64,000 bases of DNA from Pseudoalteromonas ulvae UL12. Lineage in GTDB: Bacteria > Pseudomonadota > Gammaproteobacteria > Enterobacterales > Alteromonadaceae. The notes under the pieces were generated by a model, which did no database searches, was not told the origin of the DNA, and saw only the letters and a program-made list of their open reading frames with translations. Positions 1 to 9,247 of this stretch are shown here, one piece after another. The stretch's first letter is position 1, and the number at the start of each line of letters is the position of its first letter. The DNA is taken from NCBI RefSeq assembly GCF_014925405.1, contig NZ_AQHJ01000028.1, positions 1-64,000 of the forward strand. Reading direction: 5' to 3'. The translations under genes and the position numbers were made by a program.

Positions 1-64
1 GGCTTGCGCTCATTCTTCGCTTAGTTTAGCCTGCTATTTTCCGCCGTTTATTAAGGCGTTAAAT
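1..64 (+). repeat. Partial attC site (integron cassette recombination site)
   Basis: This is the right part of an attC site whose left end lies outside the window. It ends in GGCGTTAAAT, where GTTAAAT (58-64) fits the R' core GTTRRRY. The next cassette gene starts 19 bases later. The imperfect palindromic arm and the position directly before a small + strand gene match the sites further along the array. Confidence 0.7.
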
Positions 65-82
65 TTCAAAAGAAGTATCGAG

Positions 83-556
83 ATGGACGAAAGAGATCAG
101 AAAGCATTAGATGATATTGAAGAATATGGATGTCATGTTATGAATGTTATGAATGTTATGGAAGGTGATGATGAGCCTTCTTTTACATATTCTATTGGTA
201 TTAACAAGAAACAAAATAAGCCGGATGTAGTAATTCTAGGGTTGAAGTCAGAATTGGCCCACTCAATGGCAAATAACTACAAAAATCGTCTTCTCGATGG
301 AGAGGTATTTGAGCCAGGAAATTATTATTCAGACTTTCTTGGTGATTTCGATGTGTGTTTCGTGAAAGTCTCAAAAAAATATTTCAAAGATTATTTTGGT
401 TGGGGACTTTGGCTTCACAAAGGAGACGATTTTGAAATGCTTCAAATGGTCTGGCCTACAACTGACGGTGTTTGGCCCTGGGGCGAGAATAAGTCGGATT
501 TTTACAAGTGGGCACAACCAATATTAAATGAAGATGGTGTGCTAAATGAAATTTAA
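83..556 (+). CDS. DUF4262 domain protein (integron cassette gene)
   Basis: The 157-residue protein has the pattern of the DUF4262 family: a G-H-V opening near residue 17, then PSFTYSIGI, a PDVVILGLK strand, and a basic C-terminal half. No biochemical function is established for this family. The gene lies between two attC sites, so it is a mobile cassette. The ATG at 83 follows a weak purine-rich stretch. The stop codon overlaps the R'' core of the next attC, as is usual for cassettes. A 9-bp tandem duplication (137-154) repeats Met-Asn-Val within the conserved N-terminal strand, in frame. Confidence 0.8.
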   Translation: MDERDQKALDDIEEYGCHVMNVMNVMEGDDEPSFTYSIGINKKQNKPDVVILGLKSELAHSMANNYKNRLLDGEVFEPGNYYSDFLGDFDVCFVKVSKKYFKDYFGWGLWLHKGDDFEMLQMVWPTTDGVWPWGENKSDFYKWAQPILNEDGVLNEI

Positions 557-655
557 CAAGGCCAGTCAATCTGACCTTCGTAAACTGTCTTCTTTTTTGC
601 AAAAAGACGCAAAAAAGCCGCCAATTCACTCCGGCAGTTGCTGGCGGCGTTAGGT
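551..655 (+). repeat. attC site, 105 bp
   Basis: It starts with the R'' core ATTTAAC (551-557) and ends with the R' core GTTAGGT (649-655), fitting RYYYAAC and GTTRRRY. The middle has inverted segments, for example TTTTTTGC paired with GCAAAAA around 593-607 and a GCCGCCA / TGGCGGC pair near 617-648. It separates the DUF4262 cassette from the next one. Confidence 0.8.
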
Positions 656-683
656 GAATAGGGAATATCTGGAGTATGCTGTC

Positions 684-917
684 ATGGAAGTAGTTAAATA
701 TCATCCTGAACATAATTCAACAATGTACTCAGGTTCAAAAGGTGAATATCTCCTGTATGTGCACGTACATGCGCCAAGTGTAGGTTTTGATGTAATTCAT
801 GAACTACCTAAACATGAGCTTAAGTCGTATAAAAAAGATCCTGAATCTTATGTTTCCGAAAAGGCTGCATATATGGCAAAGTATCCAACTAGTTTCAAAA
901 CGCTATCGGATAAGTAG
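684..917 (+). CDS. Small hypothetical protein (integron cassette gene)
   Basis: I do not recognise this 77-residue protein. It is hydrophilic, rich in Lys, His and Tyr, and has no signal peptide or membrane segment. ATG 684 is chosen because GGAG (671-674) lies 9 bases upstream. An in-frame GTG at 654 would give 87 residues but would start inside the attC core. The gene fills one cassette, between the attC ending at 655 and the R'' core starting at 931. An insertion sequence has landed in its attC site, right after the cassette. Confidence 0.6.
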   Translation: MEVVKYHPEHNSTMYSGSKGEYLLYVHVHAPSVGFDVIHELPKHELKSYKKDPESYVSEKAAYMAKYPTSFKTLSDK

Positions 918-964
918 TGGTGTATTATTCACCTAACAAGAGACTATGGCGTCAATAGCTAATT

Positions 965-1921
<957 letters not shown>

Positions 1922-1949
1922 CTAACTCTTGCTTGCATAATGCGGGTTC

Positions 1950-2090
1950 GAGACCCAGTAGACTATTCGAGTGTGATGCTTGGAGTCTTTTGTGGCGTTC
2001 ATTCTTGTTATCGGTCTCTCAACAGAGGATCCATCGCTTAATCGAACTACCACAAAAGAGAGCTTTAGTTGCAGCTAAAGCCTGGGTCTC
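1950..2090 (-). ncRNA. Candidate bridge RNA of IS110-family copy 1
   Basis: The segment lies upstream of the transposase in the element's long non-coding end. Complementary stretches seen by eye: a 9-bp closing helix (1950-1958 with 2082-2090), a 7-bp hairpin (2062-2068 with 2075-2081), and a 10-bp stem (1986-1995 with 2050-2059) enclosing a 54-nt loop. In RNA sense the loop holds UUAAGCGA then AUAACAAG. The second equals the attC R'' core side of the insertion point. The first is complementary to the other side (7 of 8 bases at copy 2, 4 of 8 at copy 1). A second loop (1959-1985) holds AUAGUCU, identical to the element end. Exact RNA ends and transcription are unknown. Confidence 0.7.
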
Positions 2091-2251
2091 ACATTACCCG
2101 AACTTGGTTTAAAAGAATAATTAGATGGGTTTATTATCCATACAAGCTAATTAATAAGGACAAAAAACAGTTGGCTGTTTTCGTTCCTCAACATTTTAGC
2201 CAACAATTTTTTGCCCATTATTAGGGCGTTACATTTCACGGAGGATTTAGG

Positions 2252-2809
2252 TTGTCATTTCCAGTTTTAGAGACAAATCGCTTAAGGTTAGATCAATTAT
2301 CAGAAGATGATTCAAATAGTTTGTTTGAGTTGTTCTCGGACAACACAGTTGTCAAATACTATGATTTAGAAGCATTCACTGAACTGTCACAAGCGAGTAA
2401 ATTAATAGAATTCTTTAACTCTCGATTTAAAGAAAACTCTGGTATTCGTTGGGCTATTCGCTTAAAAGAAAAAAATGAATTCATAGGTACTTGTGGCTTT
2501 AATTCTTGGAGCCCTAAAATGAAGAATGCCACTATTGGTTATGACTTATTGCCCAAGTATTGGAGTAACGGTTTTACCACGGAAGCAGTTCATCGAATAG
2601 TTAAAACTGCATTTTTAGGTGAATTATCTTGCGGTAAACTTAATCGTATTCAAGGAGATACCGTTCCGGGTAACTCTGCTTCTGAGTCGCTCCTTTTAAA
2701 AATAGGCTTCAAAGAAGAAGGTCTAAGGCGTCAAAGCGGTTACTGGAAAAATCAATTCCATGATCTTAAGTGCTTTGGGTTAATTAGGTCTGAGTATAGA
2801 GAAATATAA
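2252..2809 (+). CDS. GNAT-family N-acetyltransferase, RimJ/RimL-like (cassette gene)
   Basis: The 185-residue protein reads as a ribosomal-protein-type acetyltransferase: an N-terminal LETNRLRLDQL, a central GTCGF strand, a YDLLPKYWSNGFTTEA acetyl-CoA-binding region near residues 98-113, and the late NSASESLLLKIGFKEEG helix-strand. It would transfer acetyl from acetyl-CoA to an amine; the substrate cannot be told. The start is TTG 2252, supported by GGAGG at 2240-2244. No in-frame ATG gives full length. It fills one cassette and its stop codon overlaps the next attC core. Confidence 0.85.
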   Translation: MSFPVLETNRLRLDQLSEDDSNSLFELFSDNTVVKYYDLEAFTELSQASKLIEFFNSRFKENSGIRWAIRLKEKNEFIGTCGFNSWSPKMKNATIGYDLLPKYWSNGFTTEAVHRIVKTAFLGELSCGKLNRIQGDTVPGNSASESLLLKIGFKEEGLRRQSGYWKNQFHDLKCFGLIRSEYREI

Positions 2810-2902
2810 CAATCAGTTGGTGTGCGCCCCTGCGGGGCTGGGACGGTTACACTTCGCTCGTTCCTCGCTACGTTTCACCGCCCCACAACAAAAGCGTTAT
2901 GT
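2804..2902 (+). repeat. attC site, 99 bp
   Basis: R'' core ATATAAC (2804-2810) and R' core GTTATGT (2896-2902) bound a GC-rich imperfect palindrome: GTTGGTGTGCG on the left pairs loosely with CCGCCCCACAAC on the right, with GGGACGG and CGTTTCACC in the middle. It follows the GNAT gene and precedes the zinc-ribbon gene. Confidence 0.75.
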
Positions 2903-2926
2903 GTCACATCTAACACGGAGAGTAGT

Positions 2927-3369
2927 TTGAAAAATCCTACAGGGACTAAAAAGAATCATCGTGGCACTTTTTTAATGAATGGTGGTTTAACTCATGTGAG
3001 GTATGATCACAAAAGTCGCCCATCAAAATTGATATTAAATGCCCAAATTGTAGTTCTTTAGCAATTGCTAAAGATGAAGAAGTAGGTGACTCTTTATTTG
3101 TCGCTGATATGTCACCAAGCTTTAAAGGCTCACCATTTTCAATTACATGCACGTCATGTATGTACCGCAAAAAGAGGTTAGCCTATGAAGAGCTAACTGA
3201 ACCTTACTTTCAGTTTGAAGGCCGTGGCGAGATTCTTTGGGCATGGAATCGAGAACATTTAGATATGATTTATAAATATTTAAATGGCGTATCGATCAAA
3301 GAACATGACTATGAGTTTTATAACACATACATTCATGGTGATTGGAAAAATATAAAACAACTTATTTAA
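2927..3369 (+). pseudogene. Zinc-ribbon-like cassette gene broken by a frameshift
   Basis: A TTG start at 2927 with GGAG 6 bases upstream opens a frame reading MKNPTGTKKNHRGTFLMNGG and running to a stop at 3061. From about 3015 the coding sense continues in another frame, PIKIDIKCPNCSS, with a second CTSC pair near 3150. It then runs to the stop at 3369 (IHGDWKNIKQLI). The two CxxC pairs suggest a small zinc-binding protein, function unknown. The second frame has a stop (TGA 3004) just upstream and no good start of its own. So a one-base indel near 3005-3025, or a sequencing error, splits the gene. ATG 3109 would give only the C-terminal 86 residues. Confidence 0.65.
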
Positions 3370-3395
3370 AAACAATTAGTAAAGGTTTAAGTGAC

Positions 3396-3496
3396 ACATA
3401 ACAAGTCATTAAAGCAGGACAAAAAACAGTTGGTTTTTGCTCGTGCCTCGCTTATTTTAACCAACTATTTTATTGCCTCTTAATGAGGCGTTATGT
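3396..3496 (+). repeat. attC site, 101 bp, uninterrupted
   Basis: R'' core ACATAAC (3396-3402) is followed by AAG, and R' core GTTATGT is at 3490-3496. The inner arms CAGTTGGTT and AACCAACTA (about 3428-3467) pair. It closely resembles the arms left beside insertion sequence copy 1 (shared GGACAAAAAACAGTTGG) and serves as the empty-site reference for placing the element ends. Confidence 0.8.
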
Positions 3497-3508
3497 TTTA
3501 AGGGAAGT

Positions 3509-3859
3509 ATGAAGAAAGTAATCGGATTATATGTTCTTGTTGTAGTAGTTGGTGTATTCACATCAATAGCTGTTTCAGAAAAGGTAACAGAAGAAACTTT
3601 CAAGTTTTATTCTGGAGCCACTATGAATCAAATGGATTATGGTTTAACCCTAGAAAACTCCTTAGCTATTTTAGCTGCATACGAAAACAGTGATGAAGCT
3701 GAATTTTATCAATCAAGTTGTGTGCAAATTGATTTATCGCTAAGAGCTTTACGCTTGTACAGTGGCAATATTGATGGGATGCAACAAGTTCGAACAGAGT
3801 CTGCTATTACCAAAGGCGATGAAGTACTTTTAAAACTACAGCAATCAGGCAAGTGTTAA
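3509..3859 (+). CDS. Small exported or membrane-anchored hypothetical protein (cassette gene)
   Basis: The 116-residue protein begins MKKVIGLYVLVVVVGVFTSI, a single hydrophobic segment that could be a signal peptide or an N-terminal anchor. The remainder, about 90 residues, is polar with two cysteines (residues about 82 and 116, the last residue). I do not recognise the family. ATG 3509 follows GGGAAG with good spacing. The frame extends upstream into attC but that part is not plausible coding sequence. It is one cassette, between the attC ending at 3496 and the interrupted attC starting at 3865. Confidence 0.65.
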   Translation: MKKVIGLYVLVVVVGVFTSIAVSEKVTEETFKFYSGATMNQMDYGLTLENSLAILAAYENSDEAEFYQSSCVQIDLSLRALRLYSGNIDGMQQVRTESAITKGDEVLLKLQQSGKC

Positions 3860-3898
3860 TTAAAACATAACAAGAGACTATGGCGTCAATAGCTAATT

Positions 3899-4852
<954 letters not shown>

Positions 4853-4880
4853 CTAACTCTTGCTTGCATAATGCGGGTTC

Positions 4881-5021
4881 GAGACCCAGTAGACTATTCG
4901 AGTGTGATGCTTGGAGTCTTTTGTGGCGTTCATTCTTGTTATCGGTCTCTCAACAGAGGATCCATCGCTTAATCGAACTACCACAAAAGAGAGCTTTAGT
5001 TGCAGCTAAAGCCTGGGTCTC
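4881..5021 (-). ncRNA. Candidate bridge RNA of IS110-family copy 2
   Basis: The sequence is identical to the copy 1 segment shifted by 2931 bases, including the closing helix, the hairpin and the large guide loop. At this site the two guide blocks fit the flanks well: AUAACAAG matches 8 of 8 bases before the junction, and the block complementary to TCGCTTAA fits TTGCTTAA after it (7 of 8). This agrees with insertion guided by this RNA. Confidence 0.68.
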
Positions 5022-5141
5022 ACATTACCCGAACTTGGTTTAAAAGAATAATTAGATGGGTTTATTATCCATACAAGTTGCTTAAACGGAAAAATAACAG
5101 TTGGCCATCGCTTCGCGATTTTAGCCAACCATTATTTTAAC

Positions 5142-5223
5142 GCTTAACTCGTTCCCTTCGGTCACTGGGACACAAACGCAGCGGCGCTTCGCTATTTTGC
5201 CGCTACGTTTGCGCCTGTTAGCT
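5142..5223 (+). repeat. attC site, 82 bp
   Basis: R'' core GCTTAAC (5142-5148) and R' core GTTAGCT (5217-5223) bound a strong palindrome: AACGCAGCGGC pairs with GCCGCTACGTTT around 5175-5211. It follows directly on the truncated arm of the previous attC with no gene between, so one cassette seems to have been deleted here. The toxin-antitoxin cassette follows. Confidence 0.7.
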
Positions 5224-5263
5224 TAAAGTTAGTTGCCTTTTCAATACCGCATGTTCAATTTAC

Positions 5264-5310
5264 TGTACACGTATGTGAGAGAAGATTATACTTGTTCCAT
5301 TAAATGTACA
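5264..5310 (+). promoter_or_regulatory. Candidate YefM-YoeB operator: two TGTACA boxes
   Basis: TGTACA occurs at 5264-5269 and 5305-5310, just upstream of the antitoxin start. TGTACA is the known core bound by YefM in the autoregulated yefM-yoeB promoter. The 100 bases between the attC and the ATG are longer than in other cassettes here, consistent with a cassette carrying its own promoter. The exact -35 and -10 are not clear to me. Confidence 0.6.
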
Positions 5311-5323
5311 TGTGAAGGTTCTT

Positions 5324-5578
5324 ATGAGAATCATATCTTTTACTGAAGCTAGAAATGGTCTTAAAGCTGTCTTGGACGGTGTAGTTAATGATGCAGATAC
5401 AACAGTCATTACACGTCGTGATTCTGAGGATGCTGTGGTTATGTCTTTAGATTACTACAACAGCCTTATGGAGACAGTGCACTTACTTCGCTCTCCTCAA
5501 AATGCTGAACACCTAAACCGATCAATAGCACAGTACCGTGCTGGCAAAACGACAGCACGAGAGTTAATTGATGAGTAG
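5324..5578 (+). CDS. yefM: Antitoxin YefM (Phd/YefM family)
   Basis: The 84-residue protein matches E. coli YefM in length and pattern: MRIISFTEARNGLKAVL at the N-terminus, TVITRRDSEDAVVMSLDYYN in the middle, and LLRSPQNAEHL leading into the toxin-wrapping tail. It should bind DNA through its N-terminal part and neutralise YoeB through its C-terminal part. ATG 5324 is preferred over GTG 5312 because GAAGG lies 5 bases upstream and the family starts at this Met. The end overlaps the toxin start by 8 bases, the usual coupled arrangement. Confidence 0.93.
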   Translation: MRIISFTEARNGLKAVLDGVVNDADTTVITRRDSEDAVVMSLDYYNSLMETVHLLRSPQNAEHLNRSIAQYRAGKTTARELIDE

Positions 5579-5840
5579 TAGTCAACGTTTACTATCGTGG
5601 ACTGATGAGGCTTGGGGTGACTACCTGTATTGGCAAACCCAAGATAAGAAAACACTTAAGCGTATCAACAAACTTATTAATGATGTTAAGCGTTCTCCTT
5701 TTGAGGGTATTGGTAAACCTGAACCGTTAAAAGAGAACCTATCTGGTTTTTGGTCTCGCCGCATTGACGATACTAATAGGCTTGTTTACGCAGTCGATGA
5801 TCAAGCAATAACAATAATTTCATGTCGCTACCACTACTAA
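5571..5840 (+). CDS. yoeB: Toxin YoeB, ribosome-dependent mRNA interferase
   Basis: The 89-residue protein matches YoeB almost block by block: WTDEAWGDYLYWQ, SPFEGIGKPEPLKENLSGFWSRRI and a C-terminal CRYHY. Catalytic Glu (in FEGIGKPEPLK), Arg (SRRI) and the penultimate His are all present. YoeB cleaves mRNA in the ribosomal A site. The N-terminus is about five residues longer than in E. coli. Start at ATG 5571, inside the last codons of yefM, indicates translational coupling. In integrons such pairs are thought to stabilise arrays against cassette loss. Confidence 0.95.
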   Translation: MSSSQRLLSWTDEAWGDYLYWQTQDKKTLKRINKLINDVKRSPFEGIGKPEPLKENLSGFWSRRIDDTNRLVYAVDDQAITIISCRYHY

Positions 5841-5860
5841 ATCAGGTTCAACGGTCGGGC

Positions 5861-5986
5861 ATCTAACAAACAATTTAAGAGTGATTCAGCACGCTTGGCA
5901 TTTTTGGTTTGGTTTTAGTTCAGTGTTTACGGTGGTCAAATGGAGTGTCGTGGCTGCGTGCTTCACACCTTAATTGGGCGTTAGAG
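5861..5986 (+). repeat. attC site, 126 bp, Vibrio VCR-like
   Basis: R'' core ATCTAAC (5861-5867) opens TAACAAACAATTTAAGAG, and the site ends CTTAATTGGGCGTTAG (R' core from 5980). Its length and its end blocks resemble the long repeats of Vibrio superintegrons and differ from the 82-105 bp sites elsewhere in this array. The toxin-antitoxin cassette therefore probably came from a Vibrio-type array. Confidence 0.75.
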
Positions 5987-6035
5987 TGAAAGTGAATTTT
6001 ATGCGTAATCGTCACTTTGGGGAACATTAATCAAA

Positions 6036-6425
6036 ATGATGAATTTAAAAATTAAATCGCATTTAGTTGCCCGAATACTTTCTATTTATATAGTTACCTT
6101 TTTATTATCGGGCTGCTTTAAAGACGTAGATATAAATCCGAGAGTAACAGCTGATAAATTAGTTGGTGAATACTCAAATATGGAACAAGTTTTATTTATT
6201 GAATCAGATAAAACTTATCGAATAAACTCAGGGGGTTCAAAAGAGGAAGGTTTCTGGTCTATTCTCGATTCTACAGTTACATTGACTTCAAATAATCAAA
6301 AAGTAACTCGTATTAAAGTTTACGAAGTAGAAGGGCTGTATGAGTTAATTACTCTTGATAGAAGCCCGCAGGATCCTGATACTTATGATTTCTCTAAAAC
6401 AATGAGACGTAAGGCTTTGGAGTAA
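6036..6425 (+). CDS. Hypothetical lipoprotein (cassette gene)
   Basis: The 129-residue product has a hydrophobic N-terminus ending in LLSGC, a lipobox with the lipidated Cys near residue 27. It should be processed by signal peptidase II. The mature part, about 100 residues, reads like a small beta protein (KLVGEYSNMEQVLFIESDKTY, GFWSILDSTVTL). That is a general pattern for secreted cassette proteins and gives no function. Two adjacent ATGs (6036, 6039) are possible starts. It lies between a VCR-like attC and a shrunken attC remnant. Confidence 0.75.
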   Translation: MMNLKIKSHLVARILSIYIVTFLLSGCFKDVDINPRVTADKLVGEYSNMEQVLFIESDKTYRINSGGSKEEGFWSILDSTVTLTSNNQKVTRIKVYEVEGLYELITLDRSPQDPDTYDFSKTMRRKALE

Positions 6426-6430
6426 TTTTA

Positions 6431-6462
6431 CTCTAACAAGGCATTAAACAGGGGCGTTAGTA
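6431..6462 (+). repeat. Shrunken attC remnant, about 32 bp
   Basis: TCTAACAAGG (6433-6442) looks like an R'' end and GGGGCGTTAG (6451-6460) like an R' end, but only about a dozen bases separate them instead of the usual 70 or more. The central palindrome is gone, so the site should no longer recombine. This would lock the lipoprotein and SRPBCC cassettes together. Confidence 0.6.
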
Positions 6463-6485
6463 GCAATCCAACAAAAGGAGGAAAC

Positions 6486-6899
6486 ATGAAAATCAGTATT
6501 GAAACTGAAGTGAAAGCGTCGCCAGCCACCGTCTGGAATGCATGGGTCAGTCCCGAAGATATAACAAGTTGGAATTTTGCTATCGACGAATGGTGCTGCC
6601 CCAAGGCAGAAATAAGTCTGGAAGTAGGCGGGAAATTCAATTACCGAATGGAAGCGAAAGATGGTTCTATGGGTTTCGATTTCGAAGGTACTTTCACTGA
6701 GATCAATCCACAAAAATCCATTCGTTTCGAGCTTGGAGATTCACGAGTTGTTACTGTGGAGTTCTTGGAAACTGCCGAGGGAGTCAGGGTTATAGAATCA
6801 TTTGATGCTGAAGATGAAAACTCAGCAGAGCAACAAAAACAAGGTTGGCAAAGTATTCTCAATAACTTCAAAAAGCATGTTGAAAGTAAAAGCAACTAA
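6486..6899 (+). CDS. SRPBCC (AHSA1/ActivatorHsp90-like) domain protein
   Basis: The 137-residue protein has the typical AHSA1-type START-fold pattern: an N-terminal strand IETEVKASPATVWNAWVSPEDITSWN, a GGKFNYRMEAKDGSMGFDFEGTFTEI block and a C-terminal helix ending GWQSILNNFKKHVES. Proteins of this type bind hydrophobic ligands; the ligand is unknown here. ATG 6486 has a strong AAAGGAGG Shine-Dalgarno sequence. It is probably the last cassette of the array: it follows an attC remnant, and an odd TAACA-beginning repeat follows its stop codon. Confidence 0.88.
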   Translation: MKISIETEVKASPATVWNAWVSPEDITSWNFAIDEWCCPKAEISLEVGGKFNYRMEAKDGSMGFDFEGTFTEINPQKSIRFELGDSRVVTVEFLETAEGVRVIESFDAEDENSAEQQKQGWQSILNNFKKHVESKSN

Positions 6900-6911
6900 C
6901 ACAATGAGCCT

Positions 6912-6962
6912 ATCTCTCGTCAATAGGCATTACTTATCTTTTTGACCGCGCAAGCGGTCAAA
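6912..6962 (+). repeat. 26-bp dispersed repeat followed by a perfect hairpin
   Basis: Positions 6912-6937 match 25239-25264 in 25 of 26 bases (one C/T difference). Both copies lie just after a stop codon that is part of a TAACA sequence. Here a perfect hairpin follows (TTTGACCGC 6941-6949, GCAA loop, GCGGTCAAA 6954-6962). It is not followed by a T tract, so it is not a convincing terminator. It may be a degenerate attC-like end of the array. Confidence 0.6.
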
Positions 6963-7069
6963 TCCAAATCAATCAACAAATTCATCTGTCGGTTAGCTGT
7001 TAAATCGTCAACACATAGAGAGGCTCTCTTAGTGCGATCTTATCGCTGCCTGACGTTTTACACCGGCGG

Positions 7070-9247
7070 TTAAGGCAAGCAACTGGCTTTGTTAAAGAAG
7101 TACCTGACTTCGTAGTCTTCGCAAGTGGTGTTGCTGCTACTGCCTCCATTACTAGAATTCCAGCAGGCAAAGCCTGTTTGGTCATTAACTAAATTTTGCC
7201 CAGTTAACAACGAGTCGAGTTTATTGCTTGCAACGCGTGCGACAATGCCAGCAATATCAGTTGATTCACAGCTAGAAGATATGTTTCCTGCATTTTTATG
7301 AGCGTTAAATAACTCATTATCGCCATTATTTGGGCCATCAATATTGAGCCAATCTGTCGCGTAAACACCTTCTTCAATTAGTGTGTTAGCTATTTTGTAC
7401 ACGCCTAACGAATTAATTTCTTTACCTTCTTGGCCATGAAAAGCAAAAAGTTGTTGTGTGGTGGTTGAGGAATAAGTGGTACAACTACCAGATTGTGAAC
7501 CGCCAGAAATACTGTTTCCAGCATTCGAAGTTAGTTTTATGTAATACACAGTGTCGTATCCGTATTTATGATCGTCTGTACAGATGGTGATATCATCAAG
7601 ATATTCGCCTTTACTGGCGTCAAAACTTAATGTATTTCCCCAATTACCGCTGCTGCCTCCATATGTGACGCAATGCTCTTTAGTACCCACGCTGGCATGA
7701 CTAATGGCTTGTCTTGTTTCGTAACACGCTTTTAACCCATTGATTCGATTGCCCGAACGCAGTTTCACAGAGCTCAAATTGAGTGCGCCACCTTGTAGTG
7801 CTTTGCGTTTTAAGATGCCGATATCATTAAAAGCATCTCCTTTATTGGTTGAGCCTACTTGTGCTTTTTCAACAAATTGCCAATCAATATAATTACTTGA
7901 ATTAGCATACCAAAAGTCATCAAATGCTTTGTAATAGTTGACCCACACATCATCGTTGTTGAGATTGATGGTCGTTAAGAGTTGGGCATGTTCGTATGCA
8001 TTAAATGGCATACCGAACGTAAACGATCCGCTTAAGTTTTGGCAGGCTTCAAACCCTGATTGCCACGATCCTTTCGATGTAGATAGCGCCCAATTTCTAT
8101 TTGCATCAACACATGTGTGATATTGATAGGTGGAGCAGGCTTCATCGATGATGCTTTCATCTGAACTTAAACTTGCACAGTTGCCTGAACCGTTTGGTCG
8201 GTTGCTTTTCCACGACCAGATAAAATCTTCAATTTGAACTTCGTTTGCACCATAGCCACTTGCTGCGCTGGTATTGTTTGTTTCAACAAGTGCCAACTCT
8301 AATATTTGTGCCCCTTTACTGGCCCATTTTTTGATAACATTTTCGCCTGTTTTGTCTGGGTTGGGGCCATCGGTATTGAGTTGGGTCGCATCATCTATGA
8401 CGACCGTCATATTGCCGGCTTGATAGTGGGCTGTGTGGTCTTTGTTGACACATTTATCGTTACCATTTTGACAAAATGGCTGGTTGCTTTTTAAGTTACC
8501 TGTTGAATCGAAAGCATCAACGCCAATAAAAACGGTATTCCAAAACTTAGAGTAGTTACCTGCATCATGGTGGTTACACAGATCGCTGCTGTCGCGCGGA
8601 GTTTGTACAACTGCAACGAGTTGTTTTCCTGCTGCTAGAATGTCTTTTTTTGTCAAGTGGGAAACAGGTAAAGATGCACAGCTCTTATCTTTATAACCCC
8701 AATCTGAGGGAAGTAGGAGATAATCACTGATATCATTTTGTAAACGCTCGCCTATTTTATTGTGCCAATTGTTGTGGTCATTATGTTTATAAGCTTCAAT
8801 TTTCAAAAGAATGACTTCGTCAGGGTTACTCTGTAAAAAGTCTTTTATATCATCAAGGCCTTCTGATAGTTTTGCATGAAAACTGGAACATAAAGCTTTC
8901 TTTTCGAGTGAATTATGGCAAAGCATGGGGGTTGAGTCGAAGGTACCCTCAGGGTAAATATCAAACTCCACTACACGGATCCCCCGCTTCAATAAACTGT
9001 TAGGTGAGTAGTATTGGTTGACGTCTGTATAGGTACCTTTATTCCAAGAATGTGAAGCATATGCGTTATGAGCGCCTGCCCAAAAAGTTTTAGAAAAAGG
9101 GGCAACGTTATCAATTTGTCCTTGTAAATCTAGACGTTTGACTTTTTCATCATTGATTTCTATTGCTGCACTACAAGACAGGCTTAATACCAACAATCCT
9201 GATGTAACTAGTTGTGTAAGTTTTGCGATTCTATGAATTGAATTCAT
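7070..9247 (-). CDS. Secreted PI-PLC-like phosphodiesterase with C-terminal extension
   Basis: The 725-residue protein has an N-terminal signal sequence (hydrophobic LVTSGLLVLSLSCSAA). A PLC-like phosphodiesterase TIM-barrel domain follows, roughly residues 35-330: GAHNAY with the first catalytic-type His, RVVEFDIYPEG, a second His in LCHNSL, and DEVILLKIEAY. After about residue 350 comes a cysteine-rich part with VWVNYYKAFDDFWYAN and W/C spacing reminiscent of C-type-lectin-like folds. This could be a glycan- or membrane-binding region, but that is inference. It is likely exported and may act on phosphoinositide-type or glycerophospho substrates. It stands alone, convergent with the cassette array. 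Confidence 0.78.
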   Translation of the reverse strand: MNSIHRIAKLTQLVTSGLLVLSLSCSAAIEINDEKVKRLDLQGQIDNVAPFSKTFWAGAHNAYASHSWNKGTYTDVNQYYSPNSLLKRGIRVVEFDIYPEGTFDSTPMLCHNSLEKKALCSSFHAKLSEGLDDIKDFLQSNPDEVILLKIEAYKHNDHNNWHNKIGERLQNDISDYLLLPSDWGYKDKSCASLPVSHLTKKDILAAGKQLVAVVQTPRDSSDLCNHHDAGNYSKFWNTVFIGVDAFDSTGNLKSNQPFCQNGNDKCVNKDHTAHYQAGNMTVVIDDATQLNTDGPNPDKTGENVIKKWASKGAQILELALVETNNTSAASGYGANEVQIEDFIWSWKSNRPNGSGNCASLSSDESIIDEACSTYQYHTCVDANRNWALSTSKGSWQSGFEACQNLSGSFTFGMPFNAYEHAQLLTTINLNNDDVWVNYYKAFDDFWYANSSNYIDWQFVEKAQVGSTNKGDAFNDIGILKRKALQGGALNLSSVKLRSGNRINGLKACYETRQAISHASVGTKEHCVTYGGSSGNWGNTLSFDASKGEYLDDITICTDDHKYGYDTVYYIKLTSNAGNSISGGSQSGSCTTYSSTTTQQLFAFHGQEGKEINSLGVYKIANTLIEEGVYATDWLNIDGPNNGDNELFNAHKNAGNISSSCESTDIAGIVARVASNKLDSLLTGQNLVNDQTGFACWNSSNGGSSSNTTCEDYEVRYFFNKASCLP

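Follow-up and report, generated by a model that had tools for sequence, protein, structure and literature searches.

An IS110-group insertion sequence of Pseudoalteromonas ulvae with a candidate bridge RNA whose guides match integron attC sites and the element's own end

Introduction

Does the insertion sequence found twice in a cassette array of Pseudoalteromonas ulvae UL12 carry an RNA that leads it to integron attC sites? The window analysed here is a stretch of 64,000 nucleotides (contig NZ_AQHJ01000028.1, positions 1 to 64,000 of the forward strand). A first-pass annotation, made from the letters of this window alone, had placed a bridge RNA candidate at 1950-2090 and had read two blocks in its loop as the two halves of an attC target, so that the element would be programmed by RNA to hit attC. 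Tetu and Holmes, and likewise Post and Hall, reportedly dealt with IS1111-attC elements in papers of 2008-2009.

The year 2024 saw the publication of both bridge RNA and seekRNA (PMC11208160, PMC11187229). The seekRNAs of two attC-targeting elements of the IS1111 group, ISKpn4 and ISPst6, have been described (PMC11187229), and disruption of attC by ISPa21, of the same group, is on record (PMC11616780). Among more than 350 listed IS110 and IS1111 elements the non-coding region lies downstream in 186 and upstream in 123; the upstream position is usual in the IS110 group, exceptions to the positional rule are noted, and both groups are described as making a promoter where the circle closes (PMC11187229). 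A multi-loop donor region is described for many IS1111 RNAs (PMC11208160). A survey of Shewanella reports IS110 elements in integrons but no insertion sequence that interrupts attC (PMC9229058). Our full-text literature search, which covered few subscription papers, returned no IS110-group clade targeting attC among the matches listed.

Results

The element, its copies and its transposase

The element and its boundaries are placed as follows.

941..2146, minus strand: IS110-group insertion sequence, copy 1; ends set from nine own-genome copies, with one copy of the CT core (2145-2146) counted
965..1915, minus strand: transposase of copy 1, 316 aa, with DEDD_Tnp_IS110 and Transposase_20 (domain and structure matches)
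939..940, minus strand: CT core at the right junction of copy 1; the attC R'' side, CTTGTTA, runs outward to lower coordinates
2147..2156, minus strand: left target (attC L'' side) of copy 1, in the flank of the element
3875..5077, minus strand: copy 2 of the same element (transposase 3899-4846, target guides 4964-4973 and 4935-4943, donor guide 4889-4897)

The transposase of copy 1 matches the Pfam domains DEDD_Tnp_IS110 (5.6e-18) and, at its C-terminus, Transposase_20 (8.9e-18), and the nearest solved structures are those of IS621 (E 2.7e-26) and ISCro4 (E 1.9e-24). A non-coding region of about 230 nt lies upstream of the transposase start, 24 nt separate the stop codon from the right end, and end repeats of 5 bp (TATGG/CCATA) were recognised by eye. 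Judged from its sequence, the window element is an IS110-group insertion sequence. Its genome holds nine copies in all, one of them cut short, and the right flank reads CTTGTTA at eight of the nine. The flanks of a locus from the same genus (L012) and of a Pseudoalteromonas contig (L040) are those of the window element.

In a transposase tree the relatives form a clade of one origin (13 clade rows of 26, support 100/99) beside Nostoc and ISEc32-type proteins; the tree has long branches and contains no named IS1111 member, and hence was not used to exclude IS1111. ISEc32-type IS110 elements, a name taken from plasmid annotation, have the nearest named transposase seen, about 40% identical. An Rfam search of window positions 1-8000 returned no bridge RNA family, its single match being a chance snoRNA-like one under its cutoff. 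Among phage records nine matches came up, all weak and with at most 60% identity. Five plasmid relatives, scanned for inverted repeats, showed nothing readable as subterminal repeats.

The copy 2 transposase has lost one isoleucine codon from the conserved stretch IFIEATG, in which the neighbouring glutamate is one that we take to be catalytic in IS621; from this loss, copy 2 may be weak or inactive. The surrounding cassette array (83-6899) also encodes DUF4262, a GNAT acetyltransferase, a YefM-YoeB type toxin-antitoxin pair and an AHSA1-like protein, and beside it on the minus strand (7070-9247) lies a gene for a 725-aa protein with PI-PLC-X, jacalin-like lectin and Mucin2_WxxW domains.

Fold of the candidate bridge RNA

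The non-coding region upstream of the transposase holds the candidate RNA, with these paired parts.

1943..2102, minus strand: bridge RNA candidate, paired core from P1 to P1' (fold and covariation)
2084..2102, minus strand: basal stem P1, 5' strand; partner 1943-1956
2061..2082, minus strand: hairpin P2; 5/7 pairs change on both sides in relatives
2043..2058, minus strand: stem P3, 5' strand, closing the target-binding loop; partner 1987-2000; 7/11 pairs change on both sides

The fold reported for the RNA strand in the first-pass annotation was recovered with a minimum free energy of -62.3 kcal/mol (z -3.40), and none of 200 shuffles was as good. The RNA proposed at 1950-2090 is real-looking; the extent given to it was too short, since the paired core runs from about 1943 to 2102.

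For covariation we aligned 42 of the 156 sites described below, one per group of similar sequences. The alignment holds 36 pairs in five helices, paired in 96.9% of cells, a figure that is favoured by deriving the structure from the same 42 rows; the stronger measure is the number of pairs that change on both sides among relatives, which is 14 of 36. Most of these double changes sit in P3, around the target-binding loop. The covariation score was 0.208 against 0.090 (sd 0.006) in shuffled alignments, none of 500 being as high, and slid versions scored at most 0.082. The hairpin between the two target guides is almost invariant (6 of its 7 pairs never vary). The RNA structure, a basal stem enclosing a hairpin, a target-binding stem-loop and a joining strand with a donor guide, is backed by covariation.

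Target guides at the window copies

Two segments of the target-binding loop are candidate target guides.

2033..2042, minus strand: left target guide AUUAAGCGAU; covaries with the left target
2004..2012, minus strand: right target guide GAUAACAAG; goes with CTTGTT or TTTGTT targets, and in relatives with CTTATT (L047) and TTCGTT (L186)

All four match counts given earlier for these blocks were reproduced. On the plus strand, ATAACAAG agrees with the letters before the junction at 8/8 positions in copy 2 (AAAACATAACAAG, then AGACTATG) and at 7/8 in copy 1 (CACCTAACAAG, then AGACTATG), and UUAAGCGA agrees with the reverse complement of the other side at 7/8 in copy 2 (TTAAGCAA) and at 4/8 in copy 1 (TTAATTAG). 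The 7/8 match of the first-pass annotation is correct as a count, but its register is one base off that of elements such as L047 and L075. In the orientation of the transposase (minus strand), UUAAGCGA is the left guide, spelled like the left target, and AUAACAAG is the right guide, complementary to the right target and 20 nt beyond the left guide in the RNA. The left guide being target-sense and the right antisense, the two blocks would pair with opposite target strands as had been proposed, and their order is that of IS621. In the same orientation the copy 2 target reads TTTAAGCAA-CT-TGTTATG.

Eight own-genome copies have a left end, and the left guide matches their targets at 7/8 in L004-L007, at 5/8 in L002 and L008 and at 4/8 in L001 and L003. 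Scored as an ordered left/right pair against seven own-genome sites, in the register of the first-pass annotation, the guides reached a joint score of 12.71, which none of 1000 mononucleotide shuffles attained (mean 10.35, sd 0.63, best 12.57). Taken alone the window is suggestive of guides; once relatives are included, the sequence case for them is strong.

Guides and targets change together in relatives

Relatives were collected from the same genome, genus and order, from one more family (presumably Vibrionaceae), from one more genus and from GTDB contigs. This gave 211 places with a transposase start and 176 distinct flank pairs, of which 156 sites were kept, those whose left end has no more than 2 mismatches and whose left flank offers 12 nt or more of unmasked sequence. 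The left guide was scored in two registers, one base apart, and the right-guide motif could be read automatically in 135 of the 156 sites.

The left guide agrees with its own target at a mean of 5.96/8, compared with 4.65 for shuffled pairings (sd 0.08, 2000 shuffles, maximum 4.94), 4.70/8 for shuffles within the core group and 2.82/8 elsewhere in the same flanks. The match is 8 at 21 sites, 7 at 44, 6 at 35, 5 at 32, 4 at 16, 3 at 4 and 2 at 4, so that 24 of the 156 sites match poorly (2-4 of 8), two of them in the own genome. Because relatives share ancestry, we also compared each guide, at its own fixed site, with that of the closest relative whose guide differs by at least 2 letters (median scaffold distance 0.08): the element's own guide won at 97 of 156 sites, lost at 15 and tied at 44. 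Counted over the 56 left-guide types, the difference was positive for 38, negative for 7 and zero for 11 (sign test, p 3e-6). The first-pass annotation had named two findings that would speak against it, stems without covariation and homologues at attC whose loops lack the blocks. Neither was borne out: the stems covary, and the loops of relatives at attC have these blocks, which change along with the targets.

The right guide reads AACAAG where the right side is CTTGTT and AACAAAC where it is TTTGTT. In L047 the guide is AAUAAG (DNA AATAAG) and the right side CTTATT, and in L186, which the automatic motif missed, the guide is AACGAA and the right side TTCGTT. Whether C or T, the base preceding TTG at the right junction could be part of the element instead of the target, which makes the switch between the two large groups less telling than the changes in L047 and L186. 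L007, L048 and L241 have right sides that deviate from the guide, and slipped forms occur in L084 and L217. One extra T is seen in the right flank of the latter two (TTTTGTTA, CTTTGTTA), perhaps from slippage or imprecise joining at the core. The core is CT in one lineage group and TT in the other. Its first base is tied to the element group at the right junction, while at the left junction C, T, A and G all occur among the 156 sites, a hint that core mismatch is tolerated and resolved asymmetrically.

A subclade at 50-55% identity (seven sites: L139, L140, L143, L145, L192, L197, L253) has left matches of 4-6 of 8, and the motif used recognised no right end in it. Several of these seven sites adjoin attC-like sites.

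attC context of the targets

On their right side the sites have the attC R'' core and, after it, the spacer. Upstream at 45-135 nt, AACGC, which we take to be the mark of the other attC end (R'), is present at 95/156 sites and in 41/269 control windows; the distances have peaks at 85-94 and 110-119. Pairing of a partner arm with the target flank at p<=0.05 was found at 64/156 sites by a duplex test and at 66/156 by local alignment; these tests are weak because attC arms are imperfect, and the position of the motif was therefore used as well. By these measures attC identity is clear for many sites, not all. Four Shewanella loci (L049, L052, L056, L082) adjoin an attC core.

Some sites are not attC by their context. 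L061, which is 20 nt ahead of the start ATG of a MerR-regulator-like gene (by eye), has a left match of 8/8 and the full right match TTTGTTA; L194 and L210 lie inside long open frames and have the right-guide sequence, with left matches of 4 and 5 of 8. Together they favour the reading of a linear sequence over recognition of folded attC.

Left guides and the attC dialect of the host

Hosts whose attC L'' sides differ carry elements with matching, different left guides. Sites like TATCCTTA are found at L084, L185, L100 and L186 with corresponding left guides (UAUCCUUA, 8/8 in L084 and L185; 7/8 in L100). The same holds for L083, where the site is CGACCCA (CGACCCAU, 7/8), for L064, L065 and L067 of Alteromonas gracilis, where it is TTAATTTT (UUAAUUUU, 8/8), and for L174, L204, L205 and L206, where it is TTGATGCA (UUGAUGCA, 8/8). 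The left pair of L047 is likewise divergent (CUAACAGC, 8/8).

Genome G509 has 68 copies of GTTGATGCATTTGTTA, mostly in one array, compared with 0 or 1 in nine other genomes, and its element guide GUUGAUGCAU agrees with this sequence at 10/10. Across about 80 kb of the array, 43 of 80 attC-like calls read GTTGATGCAT. In genome G669, CTTAAAYGCYTTGTTA occurs 49 times and resembles the element guide there, UUAAACGAC. Automatic attC detection was good in G509 and poor in other arrays, with few calls and many likely false positives, which makes the cross-host guide table informative for G509 and partly for G669 only. The window element's guide scored 3.13/8 on the 23 attC-like calls of its own host, where detection is poor, below the 4.69 that it scored on the 13 calls of G669. 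The best site of the window guide, TTTAAGCAACTTGTTA, has one intact occurrence in the host genome.

Two arrays with different attC dialects are present in G509 (C1:1118759-1127158 and C2:766112-857057). The copy in the first, L163, matches its guide at 5/8, and the three fetched from the second, L204, L205 and L206, at 8/8.

In sequence, then, the left arm appears to differ by lineage and to follow the attC dialect of the host array in the hosts that can be checked; for the window element in its own host the scores are unfavourable. The right arm appears nearly fixed, since the attC core is nearly universal.

Donor guide and circle-junction promoter

A further guide, unseen in the first-pass annotation, covaries with the end of the element itself, and two boxes at the element ends make up a predicted promoter.

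1958..1966, minus strand: left donor guide AUAGUCU(AC), with the same letters as the element's right end
2133..2138, minus strand: -10 box GATAAT at the left end; completes a promoter with 950-955, at a spacing of 17, when circularisation brings the ends together
950..955, minus strand: -35 box TTGACG at the right end; partner of the -10 box in that promoter

The donor guide AUAGUCU stands directly before the basal stem and equals the right end ATAGTCT. It could be compared in 136 of the 156 sites, the other 20 being without a right end or a recognisable motif. Donor guide and own right end agree at 7/7 in 132 of the 136 elements (mean 6.97, against 6.29, sd 0.04, when shuffled), and the guide occurs in five forms (AUAGUCU, AUAGUCG, AUAGUCA, AUACUCG, AUAGCCC). 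A right donor guide could not be placed because the left end hardly varies among elements; candidate stretches seen by eye are 1976-1985 and 1926-1940. The predicted circle-junction promoter, TTGACN-17-(G/T)ATAAT, is found in 129 of the 136 elements.

Discussion

Element type, boundaries, a covarying fold, covariation of guides with both target and donor, and attC context at many sites point the same way: the element is of the IS110 group and very probably has a bridge RNA whose guides read its attC target and its own end. The RNA-programmed targeting of attC proposed at the outset thus draws strong support from the covariation of guides with targets and of the stems, but it is less novel than it first appeared, attC-targeting guide-RNA elements having been published with ISKpn4 and ISPst6 (PMC11187229).

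In the mechanism that we propose, the ends of the element would meet in an excised circle and make a promoter from which the upstream non-coding region would be transcribed. The transcript would be the bridge RNA, bound by the transposase, and its donor guide, in the joining strand before the basal stem, would pair with the right end of the element. Recombination between circle and attC, carried out by the transposase at a CT or TT core, would then place the element in one orientation, with the transposase opposite to the cassettes, and would split R'' from L''. Transcription, RNA binding, cleavage and the effect on cassette recombination are steps that we infer.

The traits of the IS110 group are present: DEDD and Transposase_20 domains, an upstream non-coding region with a covarying RNA, left guide 5' and right guide 3', a left donor guide equal to the right end, and a circle-junction promoter sequence. 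With IS621 (PMC11208160) the element shares the DEDD recombinase, the upstream region, the order of the target guides and a donor guide equal to the element end; a CT core like that of IS621 is seen in one lineage group. It differs in that its clade targets attC and also uses a TT core, in that the donor guide sits in the joining strand of a multi-branched fold and not in a simple internal loop, and in its end repeats of 5 bp versus 2-3 in IS621. The seekRNA of ISEc21, of IS110 type, likewise has an upstream non-coding region, a bottom-strand match before the top-strand match and a promoter made at the circle junction, but the target of ISEc21 is a stretch in the transposase genes of some IS3-family elements (PMC11187229).

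Could this be a member of the known IS1111-attC group, of ISKpn4 and ISPst6 type, with nothing else new? The target class is the same, IS1111-group elements are known to disrupt attC (PMC11187229, PMC11616780), and guide-RNA insertion at one attC end would be common to ISKpn4, ISPst6, ISPa25 (PMC11187229) and the window clade, though not every site of the clade is proved attC. As described, however, those elements have a downstream non-coding region, long subterminal inverted repeats and the opposite guide order (PMC11187229). In the window element the region lies upstream, subterminal repeats of 7-17 bp are absent, with only the 5 bp end repeats seen by eye, and the top-strand match does not stand 5' to the bottom-strand match, the order being reversed in its RNA. 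The description thus sets ISKpn4 and ISPst6 apart, and we consider membership in their group very improbable. Even less credible is that the loop is a captured piece of attC and not a guide. Its blocks do resemble attC, but a capture would be collinear on one strand, whereas the blocks are sense and antisense and stand 20 nt apart around an almost invariant hairpin.

That the transposase protein alone recognises attC, as sequence or as folded hairpin, with the similarity of the loop incidental, would agree with the many attC-like sites and with the four of eight own-genome copies whose left match is just 4-5 of 8. All three guide segments, however, change with their targets, and insertions outside attC carry guide-matching sequence (L061) or the right-guide sequence within long open frames (L194, L210), which leaves recognition by protein alone with very little probability. 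Shared ancestry of elements and hosts, without base pairing, could also make guides and targets correlate, and close relatives and hosts of one genus are over-represented here, a relatedness that survives the shuffles. Against this, the element's own guide beats that of its closest relative at a fixed site (97 to 15, with 44 ties), and in L047 and L186 a change in the right guide is mirrored on the other strand by one in the right target; we regard ancestry as a highly unlikely source of the correlation.

Beyond the bridge RNA reading itself, which we prefer, we lean, with distinctly less assurance, towards a wider picture: a widespread IS110-group clade would have specialised on attC independently of the IS1111-attC elements, its fixed right arm reading the core and its often rewritten left arm following the host dialect. 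Natural RNA reprogramming would then be an ordinary route between integrons, and the insertions may freeze cassettes. The split of R'' from L'' offers a possible, testable reason why cassettes of chromosomal integrons become immobile, and interrupted sites may escape attC searches designed for intact ones. With its known targets, the family documents naturally occurring reprogramming of guides and is useful for learning the mismatch rules of bridge RNAs. As a second RNA-guided branch of insertion sequences directed at attC, using the reverse guide order, it would represent convergent targeting of one genetic platform.
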